Made by a program: the position numbers and the translations under genes. Below are positions 2,868-28,400 of a DNA stretch of 64,000 bases, piece after piece. This DNA is from Psychrobacillus sp. INOP01 (lineage in GTDB: Bacteria; Bacillota; Bacilli; Bacillales_A; Planococcaceae): positions 2,914,001-2,978,000 of the forward strand of contig NZ_CP073315.1 of assembly GCF_018140925.1 (NCBI RefSeq), in the 5' to 3' direction. The notes under the pieces were generated by a model. It made no database searches, was not told the DNA's origin, and saw only the letters and a program-made list of their open reading frames with translations. Numbering within the stretch: position 1 is the stretch's first letter; each line of letters opens with the position of its first letter.

Positions 2868-2979
2868 GCGAGTAGATGTTACTTGAGCGCAAGTATTTAA
2901 ATCATGATAGCAAGTAAATCCTTCACGAATGCAAGTAAATAAAGAAAGAGCGCAACTATCCAGCAGTGATGAGCAAGTA
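2868..2979 (+). repeat. 21-bp-phased word array, GCAAGTAA family (copy 1)
   Basis: Six copies of a GCAAGTAA-type word have their G at 2868, 2889, 2910, 2931, 2952 and 2973, exactly 21 bp apart. Variants include GCGAGTAG at 2868 and GCAACTAT at 2952. The filler between words is not conserved. It lies in a 400-bp intergenic region downstream of the terminator at 2713-2746. The same word family recurs at 12574-12643, 19591-19980 and 21215-21570. Confidence 0.8.
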
Positions 2980-3117
2980 AATGAACCAAGCAAAAAAAGC
3001 CATTTGCGCTAAGTATTTCCCATCTATTAAGAATATTTAATGCCATTAACTACACGAAATTGAGAAAATGTGATAAACTAATAGTAATCAGAAAATTCTA
3101 TTAAAGGAGGGGAGAAT

Positions 3118-3567
3118 ATGATACTAGTACAGTTAATGAAACCATTTTATACAAAGTTTGAAGGGAACAGTATTAAGATGGTATTTGCCTATCAGTATTT
3201 TTCCATAAGGAAAGATGATGAGTTGTTTCATTTTATACCAGTGGAGGGCAAAGAAATCATTTTAAATGCTCAGACATTACAGGTAGAAAATTTGTCGGAA
3301 GTATTTGTTTTTCAAAAAGGGAATAGGTTTATAAGATTGCCACTCTATCAATTATTGCTTGTGTCAGATATTCATACACATTTACAAACAATTTTAGAAG
3401 AAGCAAACCAAGATACACAAGAAGTCCCAATTGAAGGAGCAGAAGAAGTCATCGAATTACTAGAACAACAAAACTTAGAGCGCTTGATTGACTTTGCTTT
3501 GACGACAAGAGATGAGTCATTATTCAACAAACTACAACAGTATAAAAAAAATAATGGAGGATGTTAA
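3118..3567 (+). CDS. IDEAL-domain protein
   Basis: A 149-residue cytoplasmic protein. The C-terminus carries the short IDEAL signature (residues about 119-140, LIDFALTTRDESLF), seen in several small Bacillales proteins of poorly defined role. The N-terminal 90 residues resemble nothing I can name. The start ATG at 3118 follows AAAGGAGGGGAGAAT, a strong ribosome binding site. It is a single-gene unit with a clear terminator. The domain is recognisable from the motif; the function is unknown, and protein-protein interaction is only a guess from the family. Confidence 0.75.
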   Translation: MILVQLMKPFYTKFEGNSIKMVFAYQYFSIRKDDELFHFIPVEGKEIILNAQTLQVENLSEVFVFQKGNRFIRLPLYQLLLVSDIHTHLQTILEEANQDTQEVPIEGAEEVIELLEQQNLERLIDFALTTRDESLFNKLQQYKKNNGGC

Positions 3568-3589
3568 ATTGAATAACCTTATCAAATAG

Positions 3590-3632
3590 AAAACACCTAA
3601 CGAATAGAAGTATTTCGATAGGTGTTTTTATG
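3590..3632 (+). terminator. Rho-independent terminator
   Basis: AAACACCTA pairs with TAGGTGTTT, and an inner CGAA/TTCG helix extends the stem. It is followed by TTTT. It ends the IDEAL gene and also faces the small minus-strand gene that follows. Confidence 0.75.
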
Positions 3633-3643
3633 TGCTTTCCAAT

Positions 3644-3745
3644 TTAATAGGATGTAAAAAAGTAAAGGAACAACACAAATCCGCTTGATCCGAGTACTCC
3701 AAACAAAATGTCCCCCCAATTAAATCCAAACTTGTCGATTTTCAT
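3644..3745 (-). CDS. 33-residue single-pass membrane peptide
   Basis: A very small gene with good translation signals: AAAGGAG about 10 nt before ATG 3745, then 33 codons to TAA. The peptide begins MKIDKFGFNWGD and continues as one hydrophobic stretch (ILFGVLGSSGFVLFLYFF), so it should be a single membrane helix with a short charged N-terminus. It is convergent with the IDEAL gene. No function can be assigned. The ribosome binding site, the complete frame and the clean amphipathic-plus-hydrophobic layout make it more likely real than not. Confidence 0.55.
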   Translation of the reverse strand: MKIDKFGFNWGDILFGVLGSSGFVLFLYFFTSY

Positions 3746-4085
3746 TTACAAACACTCCTTTCCTGTCAATTTCCCGGGAAATAACTCGATTATTAAATTT
3801 GTCGTAAAACTGTTTTAAAAGTTACATTTATACTCTCCTAAACTGAAAGAAATTAATCGTTTTCAAGCGAACTATTATTCTGCATTAAAGTGCAGGCTGG
3901 TTAAAGTCGCCACTTCGTGTGGCAACATCGGTACTAGTCCGACCAGTACGTCATATGACTCTCTCTTCAAGGATTGACCGAGTGCTGGTCACTTAGGCAT
4001 TGCTGAACGAAGCGGCATTATTTACCTGAGGTCCTATAACAATAATTGTGAGATGAATAAAACCTCAATTAAGAGTCCTTAAAGA
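3746..4085. other. Non-coding stretch with hairpins upstream of the flagellin gene
   Basis: About 340 bases without a credible reading frame. A perfect hairpin GCCAC-TTCGT-GTGGC lies near 3908-3922, and GACCAG (about 3941) can pair with CTGGTC (about 3985). I could not match it to a riboswitch class I know, and the best flagellin promoter lies downstream of it. It may hold a small RNA or control elements. Confidence 0.35.
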
Positions 4086-4116
4086 TTGAAAGTTACTAGA
4101 GTAACGACGATATAAT
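4086..4116 (+). promoter_or_regulatory. Overlapping sigma-D-like and sigma-A-like promoter of flagellin
   Basis: The sigma-D reading is GAAA at 4088-4091, 14 nt, then GACGATAT at 4106-4113, against the known TAAA / GCCGATAT consensus. The sigma-A reading over the same bases is TTGAAA at 4086-4091, 19 nt, then a perfect TATAAT at 4111-4116. The ribosome binding site AAAGGAG at 4131 leaves a short leader. Sigma-D control is normal for Bacillus flagellin, but here both readings fit imperfectly. Confidence 0.5.
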
Positions 4117-4142
4117 GGTTAACGGATCAAAAAGGAGCTGAG

Positions 4143-4958
4143 ATGATGCTTGGAAATTGGAATGCTACTGGATTATCTATTTTGCGGAACATGAACTCCC
4201 AATGGTCAATGGTAAATAAGTCGATGGAACGCATTTCTTCCGGGTATCGTATAAACCGAGCGGGTGATGATCCTGCAGGTCTAGCTATCTCTGAAAAAAT
4301 GCGCGCACAAATTCGTGGATTAGGACAGGCTTCGAGAAATATTCAGGATGGGATTTCCCTTGTCCAAACTGCAGAAGGTGCACTTAATGAAACACATTCT
4401 ATTTTGCAAAGGATGAGAGAACTAAGTGTTCAATCCGCAAATGACACGTTAACCGACAAGGATCGAGAGCAATTAGCAATAGAATTTGAAGAATTAAAAA
4501 AAGAAGTGTCTAGAATTTCAAAAGACACTGAGTTCAATACAAAGCCGTTATTAGATGGATCTCAAACCTCTCTTAAGATTCAAGCTGGTGCAAATGCCGG
4601 ACAATATATCGAACTGTCCTTAGGTAATATGGGTGCCGCTAGTATTGGTATACAGGATTTATCCATTTCTACGAGAGATGGTGCAGATAATGCGATTGGG
4701 GAACTAGATAAGGCCCTTCAAAAAGTATCCAGTGAACGCTCCAAAATGGGAGCTTATACAAATCGAATGGAACATGCCTATAATAATGCAATTAATATGG
4801 AAGAAAATCTGATAGCAGCGGAATCTAGAATTAGAGATGTAGATATTGCAAAGGAAATGATGGCACTCACTAAAGCTAGTCTATTAATGCAAGCCAATCA
4901 ATATGTTCTAAGCTTGCATATGCAACAAGCACAGGGAGTACTGCAACTTCTCAAATAA
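4143..4958 (+). CDS. Flagellin (divergent orphan copy)
   Basis: A 271-residue flagellin. The D0/D1 N-terminal helices are clear (SMERISSGYRINRAGDDPAG, then LAISEKMRAQIRG), and the C-terminal half ends with RDVDIAKEMM...VLQLLK. There is only a short central segment, so the surface domain is minimal. The first 15 residues (MMLGNWNATGLSILR) differ from the usual MRINHNIAALNT start, and the C-terminus lacks the usual ANQ-rich segment. It stands alone, without fliD, csrA or fliW nearby. It may be a minor or specialised filament subunit. ATG 4143 and 4146 are both possible starts behind AAAGGAG. Confidence 0.88.
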   Translation: MMLGNWNATGLSILRNMNSQWSMVNKSMERISSGYRINRAGDDPAGLAISEKMRAQIRGLGQASRNIQDGISLVQTAEGALNETHSILQRMRELSVQSANDTLTDKDREQLAIEFEELKKEVSRISKDTEFNTKPLLDGSQTSLKIQAGANAGQYIELSLGNMGAASIGIQDLSISTRDGADNAIGELDKALQKVSSERSKMGAYTNRMEHAYNNAINMEENLIAAESRIRDVDIAKEMMALTKASLLMQANQYVLSLHMQQAQGVLQLLK

Positions 4959-4959
4959 T

Positions 4960-4983
4960 CTGTTGAGACAACAGTTGTTTTTG
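4960..4983 (+). terminator. Weak terminator after flagellin
   Basis: CTGTTG-AGA-CAACAG is followed by TTGTTTTT directly after the flagellin stop codon. The short stem makes this only a moderate candidate. Confidence 0.4.
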
Positions 4984-5099
4984 ATGGTTGTTTTACTGTT
5001 CAATCCATTTTTACTTTTCATTAATAATATAGAAATTTCTGCAGTTCTTGTAAATTTCAGTTAAGATAGGTTTATAGATATTTAAAAGGGGGAAATGGG

Positions 5100-6479
5100 A
5101 TGAAGAGGTTTACTGTCTTAGCAGCAATCATTATGATTACCGGATTAATCTTAGCTCCGATTTCCACATTGGCAGCATCACTAGATGAAGTGAAGAGTAT
5201 AGTTAGTGTGCATTACAAAGGAGAACTACCCTCTAATATAGAAGGAATAAATTCTATTGATGAGCTAATGGAGCAGTTAGATCCCTATTCTGCTTATTTT
5301 ACGAGTGAAGAATATGAGGCATATACAAACACCATCAATAATACAACGACTGGCATTGGTGTGACCATTGAGGAACATGCGAGTGGAATTCAAATTGTCG
5401 GCACGTTTGAAGGAGCAGCAGGAGGGCAAGCTGGAATTTCTCCTGGTGATATTATTCTTTCAGTCGATGGTATATCGACAATTGGTATGGCAGTTCAACA
5501 AGCTTCTTCAATCATCACGGGTAAAGAAGGAACTACAGTACAGCTACTGATTTTGAAAAGTAACAATACAAAACAAATGTATAACATAACGCGTAAGAAA
5601 TTTACCATTCCTGTCGTAACAAAAGAACTCTTGGCAGGCAATATAGGGTATATAGGGATGAATTCATTTTCAGATGATGGAGCAGTCCTTGTACAAAAAG
5701 CAAAAGTCGAACTTCAAAAGCTAGGTGCAATTTCGTTTATACTCGACTTACGTAATAATGGCGGCGGATATGTACATACAGCCGAAGAACTTATTGGATT
5801 ATTTCCCAACAGCCCCGATGCATTTAAAATTATTACAACTAGTGAGTCTACGTTAACTAAATCGACTAAGCAAACCTCATTATTTCCTGCAAACACGAAA
5901 GTACTAGTCAATGGGTATAGTGCGAGTGCTTCTGAAATGACTGCTGCAGCGCTACTAGACCAAAACTCTGCATCCCTTTATGGGCAGACGACATACGGAA
6001 AAGGTTCGATGCAATCATTTTTTAGCCTTTCTGATGGATCTATTTTAAAGCTGACGATTGCAAACTTTACTGGACCTAAAGGTACTCCTATTCACAAAAC
6101 TGGCGTGAAGCCGAACTATGAAACAGTGGTAGGTTACGAGCTAATACAAGCACACAAAGATGCATTAGTGGAAGCAAATAAAAACTATAAAAAAATATCC
6201 GCATTACATAATGTACCGACAACGAAACAATTTACCATTACTTTTTCCAACAATATAGTACAAAACGAAAAGCAAAAAGTGGAATTAGTAAAACTAGGAA
6301 CTACCGATATCGTTCCGGTAACAATTGAACCAAAATCATCGAAACAGTTCGTTGTCACACCAACAGCACCACTAGAAAAAGGAGCAGACTATCTACTACT
6401 CATCCATCCGACTTTCCAAACGAATGAAGGGATCCTGATGAAAAACGGTGCTTATGTGGAAGTAACTGTTCAACCATAA
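5100..6479 (+). CDS. Secreted S41 C-terminal processing peptidase with PDZ and C-terminal Ig-like domain
   Basis: A 459-residue CtpB-type serine peptidase. Signal peptide residues 1-26 (cleavage after LAA). PDZ domain about 80-155 (GIGVTIEEH, SPGDIILSVDG). S41 core about 170-345, with DLRNNGGG at 216-223. The catalytic set S276-D287-K301 is deduced from its exact match to the spacing of the E. coli Tsp residues (Ser, +11 Asp, +25 Lys). The last 90 residues, after NVPTTKQFTITFSN, look like an SbsA-type Ig-like domain, which is unusual for this family and suggests wall association. It is first in an operon with a membrane protein and an adaptor protein, with 16 nt to the next gene. The substrate is unknown. 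Confidence 0.88.
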   Translation: MKRFTVLAAIIMITGLILAPISTLAASLDEVKSIVSVHYKGELPSNIEGINSIDELMEQLDPYSAYFTSEEYEAYTNTINNTTTGIGVTIEEHASGIQIVGTFEGAAGGQAGISPGDIILSVDGISTIGMAVQQASSIITGKEGTTVQLLILKSNNTKQMYNITRKKFTIPVVTKELLAGNIGYIGMNSFSDDGAVLVQKAKVELQKLGAISFILDLRNNGGGYVHTAEELIGLFPNSPDAFKIITTSESTLTKSTKQTSLFPANTKVLVNGYSASASEMTAAALLDQNSASLYGQTTYGKGSMQSFFSLSDGSILKLTIANFTGPKGTPIHKTGVKPNYETVVGYELIQAHKDALVEANKNYKKISALHNVPTTKQFTITFSNNIVQNEKQKVELVKLGTTDIVPVTIEPKSSKQFVVTPTAPLEKGADYLLLIHPTFQTNEGILMKNGAYVEVTVQP

Positions 6480-6495
6480 GAGGGGGAACGCTTGA

Positions 6496-8431: not shown

Positions 8432-8442
8432 ATACCGCCCCG

Positions 8443-8479
8443 AAAAAACCGGAAAGCATTGCACTTTCCGGTTTTTTTT
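8443..8479 (+). terminator. Strong rho-independent terminator
   Basis: ACCGGAAAG / CTTTCCGGT stem with a 7-nt loop, flanked by A6 and T8, so it can work in both directions. The phased array starts within about 10 bp of it. Confidence 0.85.
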
Positions 8480-8481
8480 GT

Positions 8482-8805
8482 GCTGTATGAGAGAGGTTTG
8501 CGTCTATACGAGAGAGCGCAGTATCAATATGAGAGCAAAACGTGATTATACGAGAGCGAATCCGATCTATACGAGATTGCGATGCTGTACGAGAGAGAAT
8601 TGGGCTTATACGAGAGAGCACAGTATCTATACGAGAGTAAAACGTGCTTATATGAGAGTGCATCCGATCTATACGAGATTGCTATGCTGTATGAGAGAGA
8701 ATTGGGCTTATACGAGAGAGCACAGCATCTATACGAGAGTAAAACGTGCTTATACGAGAGAGAATCCGATCTATATGAGAGCAAAACGTGCCAATACGAG
8801 AGACT
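8482..8805 (+). repeat. 21-bp-phased word array, TATACGAGAG family
   Basis: Sixteen words of the form TATACGAGAG (variants TATGAGAG, CGAGAT). The G of GAGAG lies at 8489, 8510, 8531, 8552, 8573, 8591, 8612, 8633, 8654, 8675, 8693, 8714, 8735, 8756, 8777 and 8798. All steps are 21 bp except two of 18. The 18-bp steps recur once per higher-order unit of 102 bp (four 21s plus one 18), and the fillers also repeat with that period. The array fills the gap between the terminator at 8443-8479 and yhdT. Because 102 is a multiple of 3, both strands stay open and produce spurious repetitive reading frames. Confidence 0.9.
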
Positions 8806-8905
8806 CATCCCCAAAAACCCAACCTTTTCGCACCCCACCTCTTAACAACTGAATTTATCTTCGCTATACTAGAGTGAAACATTAGGAACAGCAGGAGTGG
8901 ATGAA

Positions 8906-10611: not shown

Positions 10612-10626
10612 CAAGGAGATCCTCAG

Positions 10627-12573: not shown

Positions 12574-12643
12574 GCAAGAAAAAACCACCGTTCCGCAAGT
12601 AAAGGTAGTCAAAGAGCAAGTAACTCCAAAACGAGCGCAAGTA
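12574..12643 (+). repeat. 21-bp-phased word array, GCAAGTAA family (copy 2)
   Basis: Four words with G at 12574 (GCAAGAAA), 12595 (GCAAGTAAA), 12616 (GCAAGTAAC) and 12637 (GCAAGTAAA), exactly 21 bp apart. The array is directly downstream of the terminator at 12528-12553. Confidence 0.8.
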
Positions 12644-12661
12644 AAAATAATTTTTTTTCAT

Positions 12662-16370: not shown

Positions 16371-16388
16371 AAAGAGGAGGAATAACCG

Positions 16389-18357: not shown

Positions 18358-19481
18358 GCTCTTTATTCCAAAACTATACTCGCAGACCTATTCACCTAGT
18401 CAAAGGGAAGGGTACGATCGTTACGGACGATACTGGGAAAAACTATCTCGATTTCACAAGTGGTATAGCTGTGCTCAGTCTGGGGCACACTCATCCTGCA
18501 GTAGTCCAAGCGATCCAAGAGCAAAGCGAAAAACTTTGGCATATATCGAACCTATTCGAAAACCCTGAACAAGAAAAACTAGCTGAAACTCTGGTAAACG
18601 ATACACACTTCGCTCACGCATTTTTCTGCAACAGCGGAGCAGAGGCGAACGAAGCAGCTATCAAACTAGCTCGCAAACATACTGGAAAGCACACTATCAT
18701 CACCTTTGATAAATCATTCCACGGACGCACATTCGGCGCAATGTCCGCTACTGGTCAAGAAAAGATACGTAACGGCTTCGGTCCATTGCTCGAAACGTTC
18801 CGAACAGTACCTTTCAACGACGTAGCTGCCCTCGAAGCAGTAATCGACGAGGAAGTCGGCGCGATCATGCTTGAAGTAATCCAAGGAGAAGGCGGAGTCA
18901 ACCAAGTAACACCGGAATTTGCTAGGGCCATCTCGGACATATGCACGGCCAACGGAATCCTACTCATAGTAGACGAAGTCCAAACAGGCATTAGCCGCAC
19001 AGGTACCCGCTACGCATACGAACAAACAGTCCTGAAACCTGACATTATGACGTTAGCAAAAGGACTTGGAGGAGGCTTCCCAATCGGTGCAATGCTCGGA
19101 ACAGCAGATCTGCATGACTCATTAGGTCCAGGTACACACGGCACGACCTTCGGAGGAAACCCTCTAGCAGTAGCCGTCGCACAAACTGTATTAAACAACG
19201 TATTTACAGAGGAATTCCTTGAAGATGTAAATCAAAAATCAATTTATTTTATCGAGAAATTAAAAGAAGCTTTACCAACCAACCAGTTAGTCGGCTCAGG
19301 TCTATTACTCGGAATCGTCTGCGAAGAAGACGTCGCCGCTTACATAACAGCCGCAGATGAAGCAGGTCTACTACTAGTAGCAGCAGGACCAAACGTAATA
19401 CGCCTTCTGCCACCACTAACCGTAACAACCGAAGAAATTGACCAAGCCGTCGACATTTTACAATCAATCCTTAGTAAATAA
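18354..19481 (+). CDS. argD: Acetylornithine aminotransferase
   Basis: A 375-residue class III PLP aminotransferase that converts N-acetylglutamate semialdehyde to N-acetylornithine. Substrate/PLP residues: CNSGAEANEAAIKLAR at 92-107, VDEVQTG at 206-212, and the Schiff-base lysine K236 in LAKGLGGGFPIGAM. It starts in the 4-nt overlap with argB. It is the last gene of the operon; carAB and argF, which follow in some Bacilli, are absent. A strong terminator follows. Parts of argC-argD use C- and A-rich codons on this strand, more so than the surface-protein genes. Confidence 0.95.
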   Translation: MSSLFQNYTRRPIHLVKGKGTIVTDDTGKNYLDFTSGIAVLSLGHTHPAVVQAIQEQSEKLWHISNLFENPEQEKLAETLVNDTHFAHAFFCNSGAEANEAAIKLARKHTGKHTIITFDKSFHGRTFGAMSATGQEKIRNGFGPLLETFRTVPFNDVAALEAVIDEEVGAIMLEVIQGEGGVNQVTPEFARAISDICTANGILLIVDEVQTGISRTGTRYAYEQTVLKPDIMTLAKGLGGGFPIGAMLGTADLHDSLGPGTHGTTFGGNPLAVAVAQTVLNNVFTEEFLEDVNQKSIYFIEKLKEALPTNQLVGSGLLLGIVCEEDVAAYITAADEAGLLLVAAGPNVIRLLPPLTVTTEEIDQAVDILQSILSK

Positions 19482-19532
19482 AGCTTGTTTTACCTTGAAT
19501 TAAAGCGCTCAGCGAACCGCTATTCACCCCCA

Positions 19533-19560
19533 GGACCCGCCGATTCGGCGGGTCCTTTAA
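19533..19560 (+). terminator. Strong rho-independent terminator of the arg operon
   Basis: A GC-rich stem, GGACCCGCCGA-T-TCGGCGGGTCC, followed by TTTAAT. A phased word array begins about 50 bp further on. Confidence 0.8.
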
Positions 19561-19590
19561 TAATGTCCACAGAAAAGCCAACAACATTGA

Positions 19591-19980
19591 AACTTCCAAA
19601 TAATCCCGTTCCGCAAGTAAACCGGCTCCAACCGCAAGTAACATATGACCGAGAGCAAGTACCCGCCCCAACTCCGCAAGTAAATCCACCTCGAGAGCAA
19701 GTAACCCCAATCCGTCCGCAAGTAGAATCCAAAAAGGGAGCTATTCGGCCGAACGAAAAGCCGGCTACTTTATAACTTCCAAATAATCGCGTTCCGCAAG
19801 TAAACCACCTCCGAACGCAAGTATTCTATGACCAAGGGCAAGTACCCACCCCGACTCCGCAAGTAAATCCACCACGAGAGCAAGAAACCCCTATCCCTCC
19901 GCAAGTAAAACCAAAAAAAAAGAAAGCTTTTCGCCCGAGCGAAAAGCCAACTGCCTTAAACCTTCCAAATAATCCCTATA
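19591..19980 (+). repeat. Left GCAAGTAA array flanking the first NERD gene, with 183-185-bp higher-order units
   Basis: Two complete higher-order units (19591-19773 and 19774-19958) and the first 22 bases of a third. Each unit has a leader CTTCCAAATAATC, six words whose G lies exactly 21 bp apart (19613, 19634, 19655, 19676, 19697, 19718; then 19796, 19817, 19838, 19859, 19880, 19901), and a spacer with an inverted repeat of the form CTTTTCGC..GCGAAAAG. Within a unit, CCGCAAGTAAA and GAGAGCAAGTA words recur in a fixed order. The remaining 230 bases to the NERD gene hold only its promoter. Confidence 0.92.
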
Positions 19981-20142
19981 TAGCATATAATCTGCGCTTC
20001 TACTAACTCTACCGCAAATTTAGCATCAAAATAATACAATACTATTCCCAAAATCCACTAATATTATTTTGCGATATGAGAAACAATTCAATTCTTAATC
20101 TCATTTCTTAAAGAAAACTCTATTCTCACCCTAAAACTCCCA

Positions 20143-20172
20143 TTGAAATGCAATTTTTATTGTAGCTATAGT
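20143..20172 (+). promoter_or_regulatory. Sigma-A promoter of the first NERD gene
   Basis: TTGAAA (20143-20148), 18 nt, TATAGT (20167-20172), 42 nt before the start codon. Confidence 0.5.
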
Positions 20173-20214
20173 AGACTGCAACTAAATATGCTAATCTATC
20201 CTCGAGGTGATAAA

Positions 20215-21168
20215 ATGATAGTAAAACCATTTGCACAAACTCTATATATGGAAGCACTTATCTCGTTAAACAAACGACTGAAGAAAAACCACCCCAAATA
20301 TATCCCTCTCCGAGAAGACCTGAATCGTAATATTGCGGGAGACATAGGGGAAGAAGCAGTTATGAGTTTTCTTCAAAAAGTTAAACTTCCATACAAATTC
20401 TTTGCCTTCCACAACATTTCACTATATGGCGAGTCACTATTTCAAATGGATGTCCTAATAATTACACAGCACTATGCTGTGATACTCGAAGTTAAGAACA
20501 TCCAGGGGGAAATTGAATTTAAATCTCATCCATATCAGCTGAGCCGAACACTATCAACTGGAGTAAGAAACTCGTTCGACAGTCCTGAGATTCAACTACA
20601 AGAGTATATATATCAGTTGAATGTGATATTTAAGGCCGCTGGATTTTCGATACCTATTTACGGTGCAGTTGTTTTTCCCTTTACTAGCAGCTATATAAAA
20701 ACCCCTCCAAGTGAAACAACCGTACTATTCCGTAATGAAATCAGATCCTATTTGAGAAAATTGAAAACGCATGATCCTCCACTTTCTTTAGAAGTACTTA
20801 ACAGCCTCAAAGATTTTATTTTAAATAAAACTACCAATTACAAACCATTCCCATTAACACTACACTTTGCAATTAATCCAGATGACATTATCAATGGAGT
20901 AGAATGTACTACTTGTAACCTTGTTGGAATGAAAAAAGTTACCCGTCACTGGATATGTCCTAGATGCAGAAATATCAGCACTAATGCACATACAAAGACC
21001 ATAAAAGAATATTTTCTCATATACAAAGACTCCATTTCCAATACAGAGTGTCGCAAATTTTTAAATCTAAATAATATGTACGAGGCAAACAGAATACTAA
21101 AAAATGCAAACCTGATCAAAACTGGTAAATACAAAGATGCTAAATATAAAATGGAATTTATAAAATAA
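20215..21168 (+). CDS. NERD nuclease-like protein with zinc ribbon and C-terminal helical domain (copy 1)
   Basis: A 317-residue protein. A NERD (nuclease-related) domain spans about 40-165, with PD-(D/E)xK-type residues E46, D79, E92 and K94 (GDIGEEAV, QMDVLIIT, ILEVKN). A four-cysteine zinc ribbon follows: C231-x2-C234 and C248-x2-C251. The last ~55 residues form a helical, HTH-like domain. ATG 20215 follows GAGGTGAT; a TTG 72 nt upstream is in the promoter. It is paralogous end to end with the gene at 27164-28111. Higher-order units of the GCAAGTAA array flank it on both sides, so gene and array may form one element. Nuclease activity is inferred from the family; the target is unknown. Confidence 0.85.
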   Translation: MIVKPFAQTLYMEALISLNKRLKKNHPKYIPLREDLNRNIAGDIGEEAVMSFLQKVKLPYKFFAFHNISLYGESLFQMDVLIITQHYAVILEVKNIQGEIEFKSHPYQLSRTLSTGVRNSFDSPEIQLQEYIYQLNVIFKAAGFSIPIYGAVVFPFTSSYIKTPPSETTVLFRNEIRSYLRKLKTHDPPLSLEVLNSLKDFILNKTTNYKPFPLTLHFAINPDDIINGVECTTCNLVGMKKVTRHWICPRCRNISTNAHTKTIKEYFLIYKDSISNTECRKFLNLNNMYEANRILKNANLIKTGKYKDAKYKMEFIK

Positions 21169-21198
21169 AGATCTTCTATACTTACAAGAAGATCTTTT
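21167..21198 (+). terminator. Terminator of the first NERD gene
   Basis: AAAGATCTTCT / AGAAGATCTTT, a perfect 11-bp stem starting in the stop codon, then T. The right-hand array starts about 20 bp beyond it. Confidence 0.8.
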
Positions 21199-21214
21199 CA
21201 TATGCAATAAAATC

Positions 21215-21570
21215 AAACTCCGCAAGTAAATCCCAAAAAGCTAACAACCTTGAAGCTTCCAAATAATCCCGTTCCGCAAGTAAACCGCCTCCAACCGCAA
21301 GTAACATATGACCGAGAGCAAGTACCCAACCCGACTCCGCAAGTAAATTCACCTCGAGAGCAAGTAACTCCAATCACTCCGCAAGTAAATCCCAAAAGGA
21401 AGTTTTTCGCCCTTGCGAAAAGCCAACAACCTTGAAGCTTCCAAATAATCCCGTTCCGCAAGTAAACCACCTCCAACCGAAAGTAACATATGACTGAGAG
21501 TAAGTACCCGCCCCAACTCCGCAAGTAAATCCACCTCGAGAGCAAGTAACCCCAATCCTTTAGCAAGCAA
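21215..21570 (+). repeat. Right GCAAGTAA array flanking the first NERD gene
   Basis: A partial unit (word at 21222), a full 182-bp unit (21253-21434; words at 21276, 21297, 21318, 21339, 21360, 21381) and most of another (21435-21570; words at 21458, 21479, 21500, 21521, 21542, 21563), all 21 bp apart. The hairpin CTTGCGAAAAG partner segment near 21407-21422 is kept. The units are nearly identical in sequence to those left of the gene and in the same orientation, so the NERD gene sits between long direct repeats. Confidence 0.92.
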
Positions 21571-21643
21571 ACCATTCACGAGAGACAACAACAAACATCC
21601 CCAACAAAAAAAGCCCTCCACTCTCGCGAAAGACTCTCAAAAC

Positions 21644-22198
21644 CTAAAAATCATGCGTCATCGTCCAAATAGCGACTGCATCCGCATCCCCATCATTCAT
21701 AAACCGATGCGGCAGCGAGCTATCAAAGTAAATACTATCACCTTCATCGATAACGTAAACCTCACCCTCAATTTCAATCCGCAAACTACCAACCAGCATC
21801 AGACCGCACTCCTCGCCGCCGTGGAACATAAGCGGATCATCGGTGCCGTCGCCTGGCGACACGATCATCTTAAAAAAGCTCATCTGTTTGCCTGAACTTG
21901 GTGATAAAAGTTCATATCCGACATTAGGTCGCACTCGTTTTATCAGATTACCCTCACCTTTGCGGGTCAGAGTTACTGCATTATTCTCCTCTGACTCAAA
22001 GAATGAAAACACAGGAACCTTTAAGCTGTGGCTTAATTTCCACAACGTCTCTAAGGAGGGGGATACTTGTCCACGCTCAATTTGAGAAATCATACTCTGG
22101 CTCACACTAGCTTTTTTCGCCAGCTCTTCTGACGTCAATCCTTGAAATCGACGTAAATACCTAATTCGCTTACCAACCTCACTTTTAGGAAAGACCAA
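21644..22198 (-). CDS. HTH-cupin transcription regulator
   Basis: About 184 residues. An XRE-type HTH (about 8-60, SEELAKKASVSQSMISQIERG) is followed by a cupin_2 sensory domain (about 105-180, MFHGGEECGLMLVGSLRIEI and DSIYFDSSLPHRF). Proteins of this design bind small metabolites such as amino acids or polyamines and control neighbouring transport genes. I prefer TTG 22198, which is 8 nt after AAGGGG; GTG 22207 abuts that ribosome binding site. It is divergent from an amino acid ABC importer across a 270-bp AT-rich region, and is its probable regulator. Confidence 0.85.
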   Translation of the reverse strand: MVFPKSEVGKRIRYLRRFQGLTSEELAKKASVSQSMISQIERGQVSPSLETLWKLSHSLKVPVFSFFESEENNAVTLTRKGEGNLIKRVRPNVGYELLSPSSGKQMSFFKMIVSPGDGTDDPLMFHGGEECGLMLVGSLRIEIEGEVYVIDEGDSIYFDSSLPHRFMNDGDADAVAIWTMTHDF

Positions 22199-22375
22199 TA
22201 CAAACACCCCTTATGGATAAAAATACATTATGCAGAATAATAAAACATTGTGTTCCTAAACTAATAAATACTAACTTCATACTTTATTACATAGACTACA
22301 ACTATATACAATCTATTTTGCACTTTTTTTCAAGTAGAATCAATAATAAAAATATTATAACTAATTATTTTTATG

Positions 22376-22404
22376 TAGACACGTGAATAATAATAATTTA
22401 TACT
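22376..22404 (+). promoter_or_regulatory. Probable promoter of the ABC importer operon
   Basis: TAGACA, 17 nt, TATACT, 65 nt before the start codon, in the divergent region shared with the HTH-cupin regulator. No clear operator palindrome was found. Confidence 0.5.
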
Positions 22405-22468
22405 ACTAATAATTCACTAGTTTCATAAGGGGAACTGAATAAATAAAAAACCGGGGGGTAAAAAAGTT

Positions 22469-23296
22469 ATGAAGAAATGGTTAGCAGCTGTACTTATGAT
22501 TACCGTTTTAATCATCGCAGGTTGTAGTAATGATTCTGGCGGAGGTGTATCGACAGAAAACTCAACAGTTCAAAAAGTATTAAAAGAGAAAAAACTAGTT
22601 ATCGGGATGTCTCCAGGATATTTCCCATTTGATATGAAAGATCCAAATGGCGATTTCGTAGGCTATGATGTAGACACTGCAAACGCACTTGCTGCAGCAC
22701 TAGGAAAAGATATCAAAGTAGAATTTAAGCAATTCACTTTTGATGGATTGATTCCAGCACTTAGAACCGGAGAAGTAGATATGGTTTTCGCTGGTATGAC
22801 AATCCGTGGTGACCGCGCATTAGCGGTGAGTTTCTCAGACCCTTACTTCCAAACAGGCCAAGCTGTAATGGTACCTGGAACAGACACGGCAACAAAAACT
22901 TGGCAAGATCTTGATGTAAAAGGTAAGAAAATTGCTGTAGGTATCGGGACAACTGGTGCACTACTTGCAAAAGATGTATTTGAAAACGCAGAAATTTTAG
23001 ACTTTGAAGAATTTCCAACCGCGGCAGCAGCTATGGCGCAAGGGGAAGCGGACGCAGTAGTATACGACGAACCAGCAATCGCAGTTTGGAAATTGAAAAA
23101 TGGGGATTCTGTAAAACAAATTGAAGAATTAATTTCTACAGAAAATCTTGGAATTGCTCTTCAGAAAAATGACATCGACACAATTCAATGGGTGAACTCA
23201 TTCTTAAACAGCTACCTTGGAAGCCCTGCAGAACTTGCATCACGCACAAAATGGTTTGAAACTTCCGACTGGTTAAATGAAGTTGTAGACGAATAA
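22469..23296 (+). CDS. Amino acid ABC transporter, substrate-binding lipoprotein
   Basis: A 275-residue SBP_bac_3 family lipoprotein. Lipobox IAGC with Cys19 as the lipidation site, a Ser/Gly linker, then the bilobal binding domain (LVIGMSPGYFPFDMKDPNGD, then VGYDVDTANALAAALG; FDGLIPALRTGEVDMVFAGM). This family binds polar amino acids (Gln, Glu, Arg, His, Cys). It is the first of three importer genes; spacings of 22 and 21 nt indicate an operon. The ligand cannot be decided from sequence. Confidence 0.9.
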   Translation: MKKWLAAVLMITVLIIAGCSNDSGGGVSTENSTVQKVLKEKKLVIGMSPGYFPFDMKDPNGDFVGYDVDTANALAAALGKDIKVEFKQFTFDGLIPALRTGEVDMVFAGMTIRGDRALAVSFSDPYFQTGQAVMVPGTDTATKTWQDLDVKGKKIAVGIGTTGALLAKDVFENAEILDFEEFPTAAAAMAQGEADAVVYDEPAIAVWKLKNGDSVKQIEELISTENLGIALQKNDIDTIQWVNSFLNSYLGSPAELASRTKWFETSDWLNEVVDE

Positions 23297-23318
23297 AACA
23301 CTCTAGGGGGAATCAGCT

Positions 23319-23978
23319 ATGTACATCTACGACTGGAGTGTCATACCAAGAAACATGGACGTCTTCATCGAAGGAGCACTTAAAACACTAGAAATATCGG
23401 CAATCGCAATTCTTATAGCGATTCCAATTGGTATCCTCTTTGGACTTGGACGTATATCCAAAAACAAAATTATTTATAGCATTTCATCTGCTTATATAGA
23501 AATAATGCGTGGCGTACCACTTCTAGTTCTTTTATTATGGATATTCTTTGTACTTGGACAATTTGTTAGGTTAGGTTCTTATTGGAGTGCCATTATTGGG
23601 CTTGCCTTATTCTCCGCTGCATTTATCGCAGAAATTGTTCGCTCTGGAATACAAGGAGTACCAAAAGGGCAGATGGAAGCAGCACGCTCACTAGGTATGT
23701 CTCATACAAAAGCGATGACACATATCATTTTACCGCAAGCGTTTAGAAGAGTATTACCACCGCTTGCATCACAATTTATTATGCTGATAAAAGATTCGTC
23801 ACTCGTTTCGATTATAGCTGCAACCGACTTAACATTGAATGCTAAAAACCTAGTGGCAACATCGTTTGCTTCCATAGAAATATATACATTCGTTGCACTA
23901 ATCTATTTCATCATGACATTCAGCCTATCACTAATCATTCGATACTTTGAAAAACGATTACTGAAAAGCGAAGCATAA
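23319..23978 (+). CDS. Amino acid ABC transporter permease
   Basis: A 219-residue HisM/GlnP-type permease with about five membrane helices. The conserved EAA loop, which contacts the ATPase, is QMEAARSLGMSHTKAMTHII followed by LPQA. It has the family's early TLEISAIAILIAIPIG and MRGVPLLVLL segments. A single permease gene implies a homodimer. Ribosome binding site AGGGGGAATCAGCT. Middle gene of the importer operon. Confidence 0.92.
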   Translation: MYIYDWSVIPRNMDVFIEGALKTLEISAIAILIAIPIGILFGLGRISKNKIIYSISSAYIEIMRGVPLLVLLLWIFFVLGQFVRLGSYWSAIIGLALFSAAFIAEIVRSGIQGVPKGQMEAARSLGMSHTKAMTHIILPQAFRRVLPPLASQFIMLIKDSSLVSIIAATDLTLNAKNLVATSFASIEIYTFVALIYFIMTFSLSLIIRYFEKRLLKSEA

Positions 23979-23999
23979 CGTTAAGGAGGGTGTACCCAA

Positions 24000-24728
24000 A
24001 TGATCACTATTAAAAATGTCAATAAAAGCTTCGGTGCCCACCACGTCTTAACCGACGTTTCGCTCGAAGTACCTAAATCGAATGTTGTCGCACTGATTGG
24101 ACCAAGTGGAGCAGGGAAATCCACCCTCATCCGCACCATCAATGCATTAGAACCGATAGACACTGGCGAAATAGTAGTGGATGGCATCTCCATCCACGAC
24201 AAAAATACGGACATCAATGAAGCCCGCACTAACATCGGCTTCGTATTCCAAAGCTTCAACCTATTTCCGTTCCTAACCGCTTTAGAAAACGTAACAATGG
24301 CACCAATGAAAGTAAAAGGACTAAGCAAAGAAGAGGCTGAAAAAAGAGGAAAAGAACTACTAACTTCCCTTGGCCTTGCAGACAAATTCGGTGCCTATCC
24401 AAACAGACTTTCCGGTGGCCAACAGCAACGTGTAGCCATCGCACGAGCATTAGCAATGGATCCACAAGTCATGCTATTTGACGAACCAACATCCGCACTC
24501 GACCCAGAAATGGTAACCGAAGTGCTCGATGCAATTCGAAAATTAGCAAAAGACGGCATGACCATGGTCGTCGTAACACACGAAATGGGCTTCGCCAAAG
24601 AAATTTGCGACGAAATCGTCTTCATGGCAGAAGGTAAAATAGTCGAGCGCGCCGCTCCATCCAAATTCTTTACCAACCCAGACACCCAGCGTGCCCAAGA
24701 CTTCCTATCCAAAGTACTAAACCACTAG
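24000..24728 (+). CDS. Amino acid ABC transporter ATP-binding protein
   Basis: A 242-residue GlnQ-type ATPase. Walker [10 protein letters not shown] (34-42), Q-loop VFQSFNLFP, signature [15 protein letters not shown], Walker [13 protein letters not shown], and switch His in [10 protein letters not shown]. It energises import by the lipoprotein and permease encoded upstream. ATG 24000 follows AAGGAGGGTG. A terminator begins in its stop codon. Confidence 0.93.
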
Positions 24729-24748
24729 AGCAATCTAGTGGTTTTTTT
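24719..24748 (+). terminator. Terminator of the amino acid importer operon
   Basis: AACCACTAG / CTAGTGGTT with a 6-nt loop and seven T, overlapping the stop codon. Confidence 0.85.
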
Positions 24749-24775
24749 GTGATCAATCAGCCCACCCATATCTAC

Positions 24776-24887
24776 CACATAAATCCAATCAAACATCACA
24801 TAACTAGTCATATCCACCATATAAACAACCAAAAACGCTATATAAGTTAGCTCCATCTACCATATAAACCTCCTCAAGCCCCACATC
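24776..24887 (+). repeat. Short, decayed 21-bp-phased array, CCACATAA family
   Basis: About six words related to CYACCACATAA, counted at 24776, 24797, 24818, 24839, about 24861 and 24882, spaced 21 bp with one 22-bp step. Several are mutated (CATATAAA, TATATAAG). It fills the gap between the terminator at 24719-24748 and the promoter region of the SLH gene. The remaining bases to 25046 show no other feature. Confidence 0.7.
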
Positions 24888-25046
24888 TATCCATTTGGCC
24901 GTCTTATAAACCCTCTGCCAATTAACATATTCTTACTGATTGGTAAAATATCCACATATTACATAGATTCAAAACGAATAAATCATGCTAATATCAATTG
25001 AACGCAGAAAGCTTTAACGAGCTAAAATATTCGGGGGTAATACATA

Positions 25047-26735
25047 ATGAGCAAGTATCAAAAAATGTTCAAAGTTGCATTAGCAACTGCACTATCTACT
25101 AGCGTACTAGTAGCAGCAGCGTCACCAAACGCAGCACAAGCTGAAGAAGTGAAAGTACCAACTTTTTCGGATGTAAAAAATACACCGACAAACCATCTTT
25201 ACGAACCAGTTACTGATTTAGCTTCTCGCGGTATCATCACTGGGTACGAAGATGGGACATTCAAGCCGTACCAAAGCATTAATCGTATGCACGCTGCTAA
25301 AATCATGGCTTTGGCACTTGATCTAGACCTAGATATTGACAAGGTTAAAGATCCTGGTTTTACAGACATCGATAAGGATCACCCATACTATGTCCACATC
25401 GCAGCACTTGTGGAAGCAGGGGTTATCAAAGGATATAAAGACAACACTTTTGGTCCAAACAACACGCTTACAAGAGCACAAATGTCTAAAATGATTACTT
25501 TGGGATTTGATTTTGATCAACAGACTCTAGCAGAAAATCCATTTACTGATATAACAAAAGATCAAGAGTTTGCAGGATATGTTCAAACACTTTATTCAAA
25601 CGAAATCACAACTGGTACTACTGCAACAACATTTAGCCCATATTCAAACGTAACACGTGGACAAATGGCTTCGTTCATCTTCAGAAGTGAAAAAGAAATT
25701 GGTAATATTGCGGCTGAAGACTTTGGACAACTTACTAAAACTACTTTCACAGCTGGTGCAGGCCTAACGGAGGGGAAAAATGCTAGTGACGTAGCATCAT
25801 TAACTGTAGAATGGTTTGACCAAGCAGGAGCTGTACTTGGTAAAGGAACATTGAACAAGAAATTTGCAACTGATTTCCCAACAGCTAACCAACTTTCTAT
25901 GCCATTTGATGCTAACTTTAACTATGTAACGGATGGTTACTGGACAGTAGCAGGTAATTTCACTGGAGAACCAACTAAAGTGAAATTCACTGTAACATTT
26001 AAAAATGGTGATGTAGAAACAGCTGAAAATACAAGAGATTTATCTGGTAACATCGTTGTTCAAGATTTCGGTTTAGTTAGTGGAGACAGATATTCCGCTG
26101 GAGCAGGACTAACTGAATTCAAAACAGTAAGTGATATCGACACACTAAAAGTTAAATGGTTTGACTTAGCTGGTAATGTTATAGGTGAGGGAACTTTGAC
26201 AGATAAACTTGCTAAAGAGTACCCAATGGCAACTGAAATTTCAATGCCATTCGATGCTAACTTTGCTTATATTGGTGACGGATACTGGAATGTAGTAGGT
26301 AAATTCACTGGAGAACCTGCTAAAGTAGAATTCTCGGTTAAATACAAAAACGGGAAAGAAGTTACTGTAGAAAATACTAGAACAGTTTCTGGTAACATTG
26401 AAGCACAAGATTTCTCTAAAACTTCTGAAACAAGCTATTCAGCTGGTGCAGCTTTAACTGAAAACAAAAAAGTTAGCGACATTGAAACTCTAACTGCTGA
26501 GTGGTTCGATAAAGACGGAAAAGCTTTAGCAAAAGGTACAATGACAGAAAAATTTGTAACTGACTACCCAACAGCAACACAAATTTCAATGCCATTCGAC
26601 CCAGCATTTAACTACGTAACAGACGGTTTCTGGAAAACAGAAGGTGAATTCACTGGCGAACCAACAAAAGTGACATTCTCTGTTAAATACAAAAACGGTA
26701 AAGAAGCAACTGTAGACAACAACTTAGTAAAATAA
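25047..26735 (+). CDS. SLH-domain cell-surface protein with three tandem repeats
   Basis: 562 residues. Signal peptide 1-32 (ANA-QAEE). Three SLH domains at about 38-92, 103-154 and 164-215, with the characteristic GIITGYEDGTFKP, GVIKGYKDNTFGP and TRGQMASFI signatures; these bind pyruvylated secondary wall polymer. Then three imperfect ~113-residue repeats from about 223, 336 and 450, each with a [AG]GAxLTE start, a LSMPFDANF / ISMPFD core and an FTGEPTKVKF-type end. The repeats resemble no domain I know; they may be adhesive or structural. Start ATG 25047 follows GGGGGT. It is a single-gene unit. Confidence 0.88.
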   Translation: MSKYQKMFKVALATALSTSVLVAAASPNAAQAEEVKVPTFSDVKNTPTNHLYEPVTDLASRGIITGYEDGTFKPYQSINRMHAAKIMALALDLDLDIDKVKDPGFTDIDKDHPYYVHIAALVEAGVIKGYKDNTFGPNNTLTRAQMSKMITLGFDFDQQTLAENPFTDITKDQEFAGYVQTLYSNEITTGTTATTFSPYSNVTRGQMASFIFRSEKEIGNIAAEDFGQLTKTTFTAGAGLTEGKNASDVASLTVEWFDQAGAVLGKGTLNKKFATDFPTANQLSMPFDANFNYVTDGYWTVAGNFTGEPTKVKFTVTFKNGDVETAENTRDLSGNIVVQDFGLVSGDRYSAGAGLTEFKTVSDIDTLKVKWFDLAGNVIGEGTLTDKLAKEYPMATEISMPFDANFAYIGDGYWNVVGKFTGEPAKVEFSVKYKNGKEVTVENTRTVSGNIEAQDFSKTSETSYSAGAALTENKKVSDIETLTAEWFDKDGKALAKGTMTEKFVTDYPTATQISMPFDPAFNYVTDGFWKTEGEFTGEPTKVTFSVKYKNGKEATVDNNLVK

Positions 26736-26746
26736 AACACACCCCC

Positions 26747-26785
26747 AATCCATTGACCAACCCCAAAGGTCAATGGATTTTTTTA
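26747..26785 (+). terminator. Strong terminator of the SLH gene
   Basis: AATCCATTGACC / GGTCAATGGATT, 12 bp, then six T. The phased array begins about 10 bp later. Confidence 0.9.
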
Positions 26786-26795
26786 ATAAAACCCA

Positions 26796-27068
26796 CACAT
26801 AACTCCTGCTAACTACCACATAACCTTCCATAACCCCTAAATAAACCAGCCACTACCACATATCCATCTCTAACTACCGCACAGACTTTTATAACCACCA
26901 CAAAACCCTTCAATCACCACATAAACTTCCATAACCACCACATAACTCATCCCAACCACCACATAAACATGCAACCACCACATAATTCTAACAATTCATC
27001 ACATATCCAATCCTATCTACCACATAAACGTCCATATCCACCTCATAACTCATCCCGACCACCACATA
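26796..27068 (+). repeat. Left CCACATAA array flanking the second NERD gene
   Basis: Fourteen words of type CYACCACATAAM. CACATA (or its variant) is at 26796, 26817, 26838, 26857, 26878, 26899, 26918, 26939, 26960, 26979, 27000, 27021, 27042 and 27063. Steps are 21 bp except three of 19, giving a 61-bp higher-order pattern (21+21+19) in the left part. Fillers such as ACTTCCATA and CTCATCCC recur. The stretch 27069-27163 is C-rich and holds only the ribosome binding site of the next gene. Confidence 0.92.
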
Positions 27069-27163
27069 AACATGCAACCCCCCGCCCCAACACCCAACAC
27101 CAATTGCGTCACCATCCAATATCTGTTATCCTATAACCAATTCAATAGAAAGGGGCACTACTC

Positions 27164-28111
27164 ATAGAAATTATCAGACCATTACCTCAAAACTACCACG
27201 CACTAACAAGATTAAAAGCCCGCTTGCCAACGCATCATGAAAAATACCCAGCTATCCTAGAAAAACTAGACCAAATAAGCGCTGGCCACTTTGGAGAAGT
27301 ACGAACCGATCGATTCATCGAAGAAGTGCTATTTCCGCAACACCAACTACTCATCATCCCAGATTTACACACCCGATTACACTCCAAACGACACATCCAA
27401 ATAGACACACTAATACTCACCAAATCCTACATGTTAATAATCGAAATAAAAAACATCACGGGTACCCTACGATTTAAAAAAGATCCAAACCAACTAGTCC
27501 GAATAATAGACAACATAGAAGAAAAATCATATGCTTGTCCACTAACCCAACTAGACCGAAACTGCGATGGTATTAAAACACTATTTCCAAGCATCGAACT
27601 GCCCATTATACAAGCACTTGTGTTTCCATCCCAAAACACAATCATCGAAGATGCACCAAAAAACCACCATATTTTCTTCGCTAAACAAATACCGTTATTC
27701 ATCCAAAAACTAAACACTCAACCACCAATACTGACCAACCATCAGTTTAACCGAATAGCCAAACAACTCACGAAGATGAACAATAACTTCACACCTGATT
27801 CACTTTGCAATCGTATGAATATAAATCCTGAAATTCTCAAAAAGGGAGTCCTTTGCAAAAACTGCAATTCCAAACTCCATAGAAAATCACTCCAAACCTG
27901 GCACTGCAAAACGTGCTTAACAACGGAGAGAAATCCCATACCATCAAACATAGAAGACCTTTTTTTATTAATAAAACAAGACCTTTCAGTGAAAGATTGC
28001 ATGCATTATTTAGAAATAAATTCAAGATACACTATTTACAACAGCCTCAAGAAAATGAATGTAGGAAAAAGTGGATACAAAAAAACCACCAAATACAATA
28101 TACTGCACTAA
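27164..28111 (+). CDS. NERD nuclease-like protein with zinc ribbon (copy 2), probable AUA start
   Basis: About 315 residues, paralogous over its full length to the 317-residue protein at 20215-21168. Counted from 27164, catalytic-type residues are D81, E94 and K96 (HIQIDTLILT, IIEIKN), and the zinc cysteines are C231, C234, C248 and C251, the same numbers as in copy 1. The C-terminal helical domain (SNIEDLFLLIKQDLSVKDCM) is also kept. The first ordinary start, TTG 27224, has no ribosome binding site and would drop 20 conserved residues. ATA 27164 lies 8 nt after GAAAGGGG, so the start is either AUA or a mutated ATG. CCACATAA arrays flank it on both sides. Confidence 0.75.
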   Translation: MEIIRPLPQNYHALTRLKARLPTHHEKYPAILEKLDQISAGHFGEVRTDRFIEEVLFPQHQLLIIPDLHTRLHSKRHIQIDTLILTKSYMLIIEIKNITGTLRFKKDPNQLVRIIDNIEEKSYACPLTQLDRNCDGIKTLFPSIELPIIQALVFPSQNTIIEDAPKNHHIFFAKQIPLFIQKLNTQPPILTNHQFNRIAKQLTKMNNNFTPDSLCNRMNINPEILKKGVLCKNCNSKLHRKSLQTWHCKTCLTTERNPIPSNIEDLFLLIKQDLSVKDCMHYLEINSRYTIYNSLKKMNVGKSGYKKTTKYNILH

Positions 28112-28146
28112 AAAAGGAAGCCGATTCTCAAAATGGCTTCCTTTTA
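28112..28146 (+). terminator. Terminator of the second NERD gene
   Basis: AAAAGGAAGCC / GGCTTCCTTTT perfect 11-bp stem next to the stop codon. Confidence 0.85.
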
Positions 28147-28163
28147 TATTCCAAATTGGCATC

Positions 28164-28400
28164 CGCCGCATAACTCAATCCAACTACCACATAACCAACC
28201 ACAAGCACCACATAACTAGAGCCAACTACCACATACCCAACCCAAACTACCACCTATTCATCCAACCACCACATAAACTTCTATAACCACCACATAACTA
28301 GAGCCAACTACCACACAACTAAGCTAAACCACCACATATCAATCCAACCACCACATAAACTGCTATAGCCACCACATAACTAGAACCAACCACCACATAC
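28164..28400 (+). repeat. Right CCACATAA array flanking the second NERD gene
   Basis: Twelve words with CACATA or its variant at 28167, 28188, 28209, 28230, 28251, 28270, 28291, 28312, 28333, 28352, 28373 and 28394. Steps are 21 bp except two of 19, giving an 82-bp higher-order unit (3 x 21 + 19) in which the filler TAGAGCCAA/TAGAACCAA recurs at 28217, 28299 and 28381. Same orientation as the array left of the gene. It ends about 70 bp before the wecC start. Confidence 0.92.

Follow-up and report, generated by a model that had tools for sequence, protein, structure and literature searches.

Phased arrays of private words accompany a family of NERD nuclease-fold genes in Psychrobacillus and its relatives

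Two NERD genes and eight phased arrays

The window analysed here is a 64,000-nucleotide stretch of the Psychrobacillus sp. INOP01 chromosome (contig NZ_CP073315.1, positions 2,914,001 to 2,978,000 of the forward strand), and it holds eight arrays of short words repeated at about two helical turns, together with two genes of a NERD-zinc ribbon-winged helix family, each flanked by arrays of its own word. NERD gene 1 (P0001, 317 aa; 20215..21168, + strand) carries arrays of GCAAGTAA on both sides, and NERD gene 2 (P0002; 27161..28111, + strand, with a TTG start assumed) carries arrays of CACATAA on both sides. Both proteins belong to the NERD family, matching Pfam PF08378 with E values of 3.3e-15 (gene 1, in the longer open reading frame, or ORF, from 20143) and 1.5e-10 (gene 2) and with scores of 57 and 42 bits against a cut-off of 22.1; no Pfam match other than NERD was found in either of them.

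An alignment of 81 family proteins showed invariant E46, D79, E92, K94, Q127, C231, C234 and C248, among which D79, E92, K94 and Q127 are the PD-(D/E)xK residues. The AlphaFold2 model of P0001 (pLDDT 94.8) has a fold that resembles PD-(D/E)xK nucleases; a Foldseek search of this model against the PDB gave no match at E <= 0.001, and a sequence-profile search of the PDB gave nothing credible (best E 0.1). Among defence models, P0001 matched MAD6 of NCBIfam in part only (residues 45-105, 32 bits against a cut-off of 460) and had no match in PADLOC, while other family members matched PglW (29/81) and a few further models, with E values down to 3.7e-6. P0001 as phage or plasmid cargo was rejected, as it was unmatched in 50,697 phage records and in 72,556 plasmids (tblastn for the plasmids), and none of 112 pattern matches in viral contigs was a relative.

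When the complete genome of the window (G000, a 4.30-Mb chromosome) was searched with the NERD model, five matches were obtained. Besides the two window genes, a third gene has a phased array directly at its 3' end, with the word ATTCGACCGA on the strand shown; a fourth (L025 1165-1900) is broken and adjoined by GTTGCGCA words, and GTTGCGCA arrays persist at several sites; the fifth, which has neither zinc ribbon nor array, is of a different family. The family is present in 19/19 genomes searched of the window's genus, with 3-8 matches each, among which are fragments and other NERD proteins. In G014 (L297), a protein 90% identical to that of NERD gene 2 likewise has CACATAA arrays on both sides.

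All eight arrays are written on the + strand. Those beside NERD gene 1 lie at 19613..19908 (5', two blocks) and 21222..21570 (3'), both with 21-bp steps and with blocks set in a higher-order unit, for which Tandem Repeats Finder gave a period of 183 in 19613-19908. Two further GCAAGTAA arrays with 21-bp steps stand apart from the gene: one of 6 words at 2868..2980 and one of 4 words at 12574..12644, whose orthologous words are GCC/GCG-AGTAA in G007 and mostly GAGAGTAA in G016. NERD gene 2 lies between CACATAA arrays at 26794..27069 (5') and 28165..28418 (3'); a short CACATAA array at 24774..24882 has an occupied orthologous site in G014, and by eye there is none at that site in 8 other relatives. 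The CACATAA arrays have steps of 21, plus 19s and multiples. The eighth array, 16 words of TATACGAGAG at 8484..8802, has steps of 21 except for two of 18. It is an orphan in G000; a NERD gene with this word is present in G001 and in G014, and arrays occupy the orthologous site in G014, G001 and G007.

A sequence-only reading of this DNA had claimed eight intergenic arrays of three unrelated words phased at 21 bp, and all eight are indeed present, far above chance. The window has 29 exact copies of GCAAGTAA (22/29 inside arrays), with 3.4 expected; for ACCACATAA there are 14, with 0.7 expected, and for TATACGAGAG with at most one mismatch 18, with 2.9 expected. None of these counts was reached in 100 shuffles. 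The arrays are placed between long ORFs, and mechanical ORFs that run across some of them (e.g., 8478-8852) were not taken as genes because steps of 18 or 19 bp elsewhere break the frame. No Rfam family matched the window at the gathering threshold, which argues against a known RNA family.

Several other features of the window were observed. A short inverted repeat (GCTTTTCGCC...GCGAAAAGC) lies between GCAAGTAA blocks at 19750-19970 and 21400-21440, where it recurs with the higher-order unit, and it is also found beside NERD gene 1 in G007 and G016. Immediately upstream of NERD gene 2, an S-layer-homology protein (25047-26735) has internal repeats by eye. Positions 13262-13385 hold 33- and 21-bp tandem repeats within ORF 12744-13406, which look like a coding repeat with no relation to the arrays. 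From 16000 to 32000 the + strand is rich in A and C, with a GC skew of -0.11 to -0.15; in the rest of the window and in sampled stretches of this half of the chromosome the skew is positive, so that the region of the NERD genes and arrays seems compositionally reversed.

Pairing of genes with private words and dispersal of arrays

Relatives were collected with three NERD proteins as queries against one genome per species (84,980 species), which yielded 338 relatives. The best 80 of the 338 were fetched as a first locus set, with hosts in Psychrobacillus, Sporosarcina, Viridibacillus and a wide range of Bacillus-like genera. A second set consisted of 90 loci from genomes of the window's genus, leaving out short fragments, NERD proteins lacking the zinc ribbon-winged helix part, and two own-genome loci that were read separately. 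The two overlapping sets were pooled, keeping genes >240 aa and removing near-identical proteins (156 to 144), to give 144 distinct genes.

The genes and the arrays go together throughout this sample. Within the first set, exact 7-mers formed a chain of at least 4 words in 49/80 loci; chains at a period of 21+-1 were found in 36 loci, against 0-6 at ten other periods, the 6 belonging to period 19. With one mismatch allowed and 700 bp taken on each side, at least 4 phased words were found beside the gene in 71/80 loci, in comparison to 0/80 for shuffled flanks (one shuffle per flank) and 2/80 for flanks about 3 kb away, one side of which was missing in 8 loci; one of these two far-flank matches, L027, is an array of the resident word, and the other is L030. 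Arrays were detected at 87/90 loci of the second set, and in the pooled set a phased array lay within 900 bp of 133/144 genes (0/144 after shuffling). By contrast, NERD genes without zinc ribbon and winged helix had an array in 0/7 cases, several of these seven being mutually orthologous. The sequence-only reading, in naming NERD proteins as candidate binders, had pointed in the right direction. Two loci labelled Arthrobacter (L068, L071) have gene and arrays at 40-45% GC; the label or the contigs may be wrong.

The claimed 21-bp phasing holds as a dominant spacing and not as a strict one. Among 1358 steps of up to 31 bp in the 133 gene-side arrays, scanned with their own profiles, 1014 measure 21 bp, 159 measure 20, 106 measure 19, 39 measure 18 and 22 measure 22, with anything else in 18; the mean over the 1341 steps of 16-25 bp is 20.65 bp. 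This histogram is partly conditioned, since the words and a step window of 18-22 served to find the arrays; other steps of up to 31 bp rarely appeared. The repeated part covers 8-10 bp and the fillers 11-13 bp. Filler identity within an array is 0.33 for GCAAGTAA and 0.39-0.53 for four other words; between arrays at different loci it is 0.33 for GCAAGTAA and 0.39-0.47 for the others, with 0 to 9% of filler pairs at an identity of 0.8 or more, while the word is kept. The dismissal of CRISPR and of simple tandem repeats in the earlier reading was sound: the repeat is too short for the former (no Cas family was found among ten window proteins run against Pfam, the rest of the window not being scanned for cas), and the fillers are not conserved like the word, as they would be in the latter. 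L044 is an exception, in which 38 almost identical 20-bp units of Siminovitchia fortis (4953-5700) conserve both word and filler, perhaps through a very recent expansion.

Each gene lineage carries its own private word. The mean similarity of words rises with the identity of the proteins, from 0.04 below 30% identity through 0.06 (30-40%), 0.17 (40-50%), 0.37 (50-60%), 0.51 (60-70%), 0.64 (70-80%) and 0.78 (80-90%) to 0.96 above 90%. The description of three unrelated words needs amending on both counts: G000 has at least five words, and the three belong with a single protein family, every one of them being private to one of its lineages. By eye, the window words GCAAGTAA, CACATAA and TATACGAGAG are non-palindromic and in direct orientation; palindromic or near-palindromic words occur elsewhere in the family (GTTGCGCAA; ATCGATCGAT at L036).

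The arrays are also dispersed over the chromosome. Pairs of words at 21 bp in G000, counted against the same pattern read backwards, numbered 143 vs 7 for GCAAGTAA, 78 vs 8 for ACCACATA, 21 vs 2 for ATTCGACC and 16 vs 1 for GTTGCGCA, and TACGAGAG with a gap of 10-16 gave 21 vs 0. A genome-wide scan had been proposed, and the phasing does recur outside the window in a non-random manner. The five words form at least 61 arrays, a lower bound since about 100 of the 143 GCAAGTAA places were located, and 60/61 lie outside ORFs >900 bp as delimited by a crude ORF caller. Beyond the window's genus, the word of L056, a Sporosarcina locus, gave 79 phased pairs vs 3 for the reversed pattern in its own genome, 100 vs 4 in the genome of L038, and 1-12 vs 0-3 in three others.

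These observations bear on whether the arrays might be neutral minisatellites or coding repeats of seven codons. Twenty-one base pairs do equal seven codons, higher-order tandem units exist, and nine viral contigs (L399-L407) have three phased GCAAGTAA words, by eye in repetitive coding sequence in 7/9 (the other two are nearly identical, with an unrelated context), which calls for caution with scans by spacing alone. However, steps of 18, 19, 20 and 22 break the frame, nearly all arrays of G000 avoid the long ORFs, words are conserved and fillers are not, and a single gene family is associated with the arrays in 133/144 cases. This explanation is already contradicted by the present analysis, and we give it almost no credence.

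The placement of the arrays brings in a second alternative, namely that a site-specific architectural or regulatory DNA-binding protein with a NERD fold (a nucleoid protein, post-terminator insulator or roadblock) has the arrays as its sites. Relative to the word, the genes flanking the 61 arrays are tandem and co-oriented in 26 cases, convergent in 18, tandem and counter-oriented in 13 and divergent in 3, with 1 unresolved. The arrays thus tend to follow genes, divergent spacers being few (3/60 classified) and co-oriented tandem spacers outnumbering counter-oriented ones. A co-oriented terminator-like site lies within 200 bp 5' of the array in 28/62 entries (the 61 arrays, with the near-palindromic L201 counted on both strands), in comparison to 9.5% of random positions at the same loci, and words are maintained despite the drift of fillers. 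If the change of sign in GC skew near 2.2 Mb is taken as the origin, 42/61 arrays are on the leading strand, a modest bias that may follow gene orientation. What an architectural role leaves unexplained are the nuclease residues invariant in 81 proteins, the parallel paralogues with their own words in each genome, and the rapid turnover of words, and we consider it unlikely.

Words that differ among related species and stand in spacers near terminators also recall the dialects of DNA uptake sequences (DUS), to which they are analogous as far as passages of PMC3630211 describe them; the NERD protein would then read them as markers favouring uptake or recombination of own-species DNA. The arrays form 61 clusters, not thousands of single sites, several words coexist per genome, and single words outside arrays are few (7 of GCAAGTAA in the window), which makes such a role very improbable.

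Word change and cassette turnover

NERD gene 1 occupies the same spacer in G000, G007 and G016, its proteins being about 80% identical, which allows the arrays to be compared base by base. In the array 5' of the gene, G016 keeps 74/78 of the constant G..AGTAA bases of G000 and 306/465 of the other in-array bases, with 101/125 outside the array, but only 4/26 at the two variable positions of the word. For G007 the corresponding values are 65/78 (constant), 303/456 (other), 111/133 (outside) and 11/26 (variable). Around the gene, the variable pair is CA in 21/24 words of G000, CG or CC in 6/7 words counted in G007, and AG in 14/20 of G016. Beside NERD gene 1, therefore, the array kept its place and its words switched together at two shared positions. 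Since the fillers can still be aligned, and copying of whole arrays would replace them, the change beside the gene points to word-by-word selection by an agent able to read the word.

At a distance of about 7.6 kb from NERD gene 1, the array at 12574 repeats this switch: CA in 3/4 words counted in G000, CC or CG in 5/5 of G007, and AG in 4/7 of G016 (AA in 2, CG in 1). In genomes without a NERD gene of this word, the pair is CA in 3/3 (G014) and 26/30 (G006), and CA in 4 and CC in 2 (G001). Homology of the fillers to those of G000 is clear in G014 (18/26) and G001 (26/39), and modest in G016 (21/39), where it is above all 16 unrelated control arrays.

Whole cassettes also appear to turn over. 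At one syntenic site, the NERD genes of different species have the words GCAAGTAA, GCC/GCG-AGTAA, GAGAGTAA, TATACGAGAG, CGACAAAC and CCGAGAGA; at the same site, G006 retains GCAAGTAA arrays without a gene, G004 has a AGTTCCAC array with the matching gene elsewhere in its genome, and G003, G005, G008, G009, G010 and G013 have no family gene. Between G000 and G014 the flanks of this site are 86-90% identical and the NERD genes match in short patches of 66-67% only, so that replacement of the gene is likelier than slow divergence. The site of NERD gene 2 is empty in G015 (L359), with 48 bp in place of the window's 1643. At the site orthologous to 8484-8802 in G006 (L368), a GCAAGTAA block and remnants of a TATACGAGAG array are interleaved in a composite unit of about 226 bp that is tandemly amplified. 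Pairs of TACGAGAG are by far most numerous in G014 (108) and G001 (66), the two genomes whose NERD genes include one with the word TATACGAGAG, followed by G000 (21), G016 (7) and G007 (4), with 1 in three genomes and 0 in eleven.

One rival reading is a population resembling REPINs, in which the NERD protein would multiply or mobilise the arrays that bear its word, much as RAYT copies REPINs, and slow replication or a modest benefit would sustain them. Genes flanked by their own repeat are consistent with this possibility: among 131 array-bearing genes whose other flank measures at least 300 bp, 25 have arrays on both sides, 22 direct and 3 inverted. So are the dispersal of arrays in intergenic spacers, the succession of NERD genes with different words at one syntenic site, the G015 site without an array, and the invariant catalytic residues. 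On the other hand, fillers are nearly unrelated across loci, so recent copying does not account for most arrays; 5' of NERD gene 1, words were altered within an array whose fillers can still be aligned, an outcome that copying of whole units would not give; no defined end of an element was seen, target-site duplications not having been searched for; and numerous arrays persist without a matching gene. We regard this explanation as possible but rather doubtful.

A two-part system and its relation to known repeats

We propose that the NERD nuclease-fold protein and the arrays of its private word form a two-part system, a reading to which we assign a probability of roughly 0.7. The first part would be a chromosomal protein composed of a PD-(D/E)xK (NERD) nuclease, a zinc ribbon and a C-terminal winged helix, and the second the arrays beside its gene and scattered in spacers, with a private word of about 8-10 bp every 18-22 bp. 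From the sequence comparisons we firmly infer that the protein recognises its word. Neighbouring copies may stack on one face of the DNA, and recognition would keep the words matched while the fillers drift.

Two causes of the phasing had been offered by the sequence-only reading. Of these, protein-driven selection on helical face is the stronger candidate, with steps of 18-22 across 133 arrays, words kept amid free fillers and words that change in step with the gene, although the lining-up on one face itself is only presumed. The other, an amplification mechanism, is at work too (higher-order units of 61, 183 and about 226 bp) but by itself would not keep the words and leave the fillers free.

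The purpose of the system is its least certain part. We tentatively suggest, at clearly less than even odds, that the dispersed arrays serve as a self-mark: they would tether the nuclease to the host's chromosome and render it harmless there, the chromosome being marked as self, and the nuclease would act on DNA that lacks matching arrays, or on a host that is losing its arrays to destruction. A more explicit version, which we hold to be possible but somewhat less probable, is that phased arrays neutralise or direct each nuclease, so that the chromosome itself acts as antitoxin; a change of specificity would then force the words at all arrays to change, and rival alleles with different words would replace each other at one locus. 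As a possible role, we rate a self-mark or nuclease sink a little above both a REPIN-like population and an architectural function.

Several results weigh against the proposed system or parts of it. No array was detected beside 11/144 family genes. The correlation of word similarity with protein identity, taken alone, demonstrates no more than joint inheritance of word and gene, as common descent would give the same; moreover, among 1303 close pairs, word similarity follows the nuclease domain (rho 0.504) about as well as the C-terminal half (rho 0.509), so that the winged helix is not singled out as the reader. Outside arrays there are 7 single GCAAGTAA words, where 3.4 would be expected in the window as a whole; they are not depleted, in contrast to the effect of a simple restriction enzyme for that word. 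The word switch away from the gene is seen at one array, that at 12574, where the fillers of G007 agree with those of G000 at 10/26 positions, a value reached by 11/16 unrelated arrays; the whole array may have been replaced in G007 instead of changing in place. Finally, pairs of GCAAGTAA, 87 in G000 in this comparison, number 105 in G001, 159 in G014 and 364 in G006, yet among the family genes of these three genomes (6, 5 and 3, respectively) not one has this word, which indicates that arrays outlive their gene or have another reader.

Taken as a whole, the pairing of NERD genes with word arrays is real, strong and widespread and, as far as was searched, undescribed: no description of NERD genes with arrays was found among the top-ranked matches in the open-access literature or in the databases searched. 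A NERD nuclease is mentioned in a rare defence system in a preprint on YprA helicases, in passages that do not speak of arrays (PMC12458937). Other NERD (PF08378) proteins share the nuclease domain and the active-site pattern, and those compared here lack the zinc ribbon-winged helix part and the arrays (7/7). For this branch of NERD proteins, the arrays are the only functional lead found in the literature searched. Read straight from genomes, they offer about 130 natural pairings between a protein of nuclease fold and its candidate target word, which make a recognition code, and the number of sites that change in concert, testable.

Plasmid iterons are direct repeats about two helical turns apart beside the gene of a Rep initiator. 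The arrays resemble them as direct repeats with about this spacing that adjoin the gene of a putative DNA-binding protein; they differ in being chromosomal, at 61 sites, and in accompanying a nuclease domain, and they do not mark the origin of a replicon.

DUS are present in thousands of copies, with dialects that differ among Neisseriaceae, according to passages of PMC3630211. Going by the same passages, the likeness lies in a short word, varying from one related species to another and retained genome-wide, whereas the words described here form phased, clustered arrays and not single copies, and each of the five is tied to a lineage of NERD genes.

The closest analogue is the RAYT-REP system. 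As portrayed in parts of PMC2817692, RAYT genes are flanked by two inverted REPs with which they co-evolve, are fast-evolving, and have repeat numbers that track the presence of the gene; each lineage has its own repeat, dispersed between genes (passages of PMC2817692 and PMC8049555). To the extent that these passages allow the comparison, both systems have chromosomal genes of nuclease type flanked by their own lineage-specific, dispersed and co-varying repeat, with fast change. Flanking and co-variation are found here in the array beside 133/144 genes and in the rise of word similarity with protein identity. Abundance follows the gene for TACGAGAG, while GCAAGTAA is abundant in three genomes without the matching gene. 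The enzyme differs, as a NERD PD-(D/E)xK fold takes the place of a tyrosine transposase related to IS200/IS605. The repeats differ as well: the window words are non-palindromic, 8-10 bp long and set in polar arrays at two-turn phase, unlike the imperfect palindromes of REPs and the hairpins of REPINs; arrays on both flanks are mostly direct (22 against 3 inverted), where the REPs of RAYT genes are inverted in the part of PMC2817692 that describes them; and words here change in place beside the gene. The NERD system thus works somewhat like RAYT-REP, yet it is not a member of it. If the proposed system is true, bacterial genomes would offer another instance, unrelated to the first, in which a protein goes with a population of dispersed repeats of its own.

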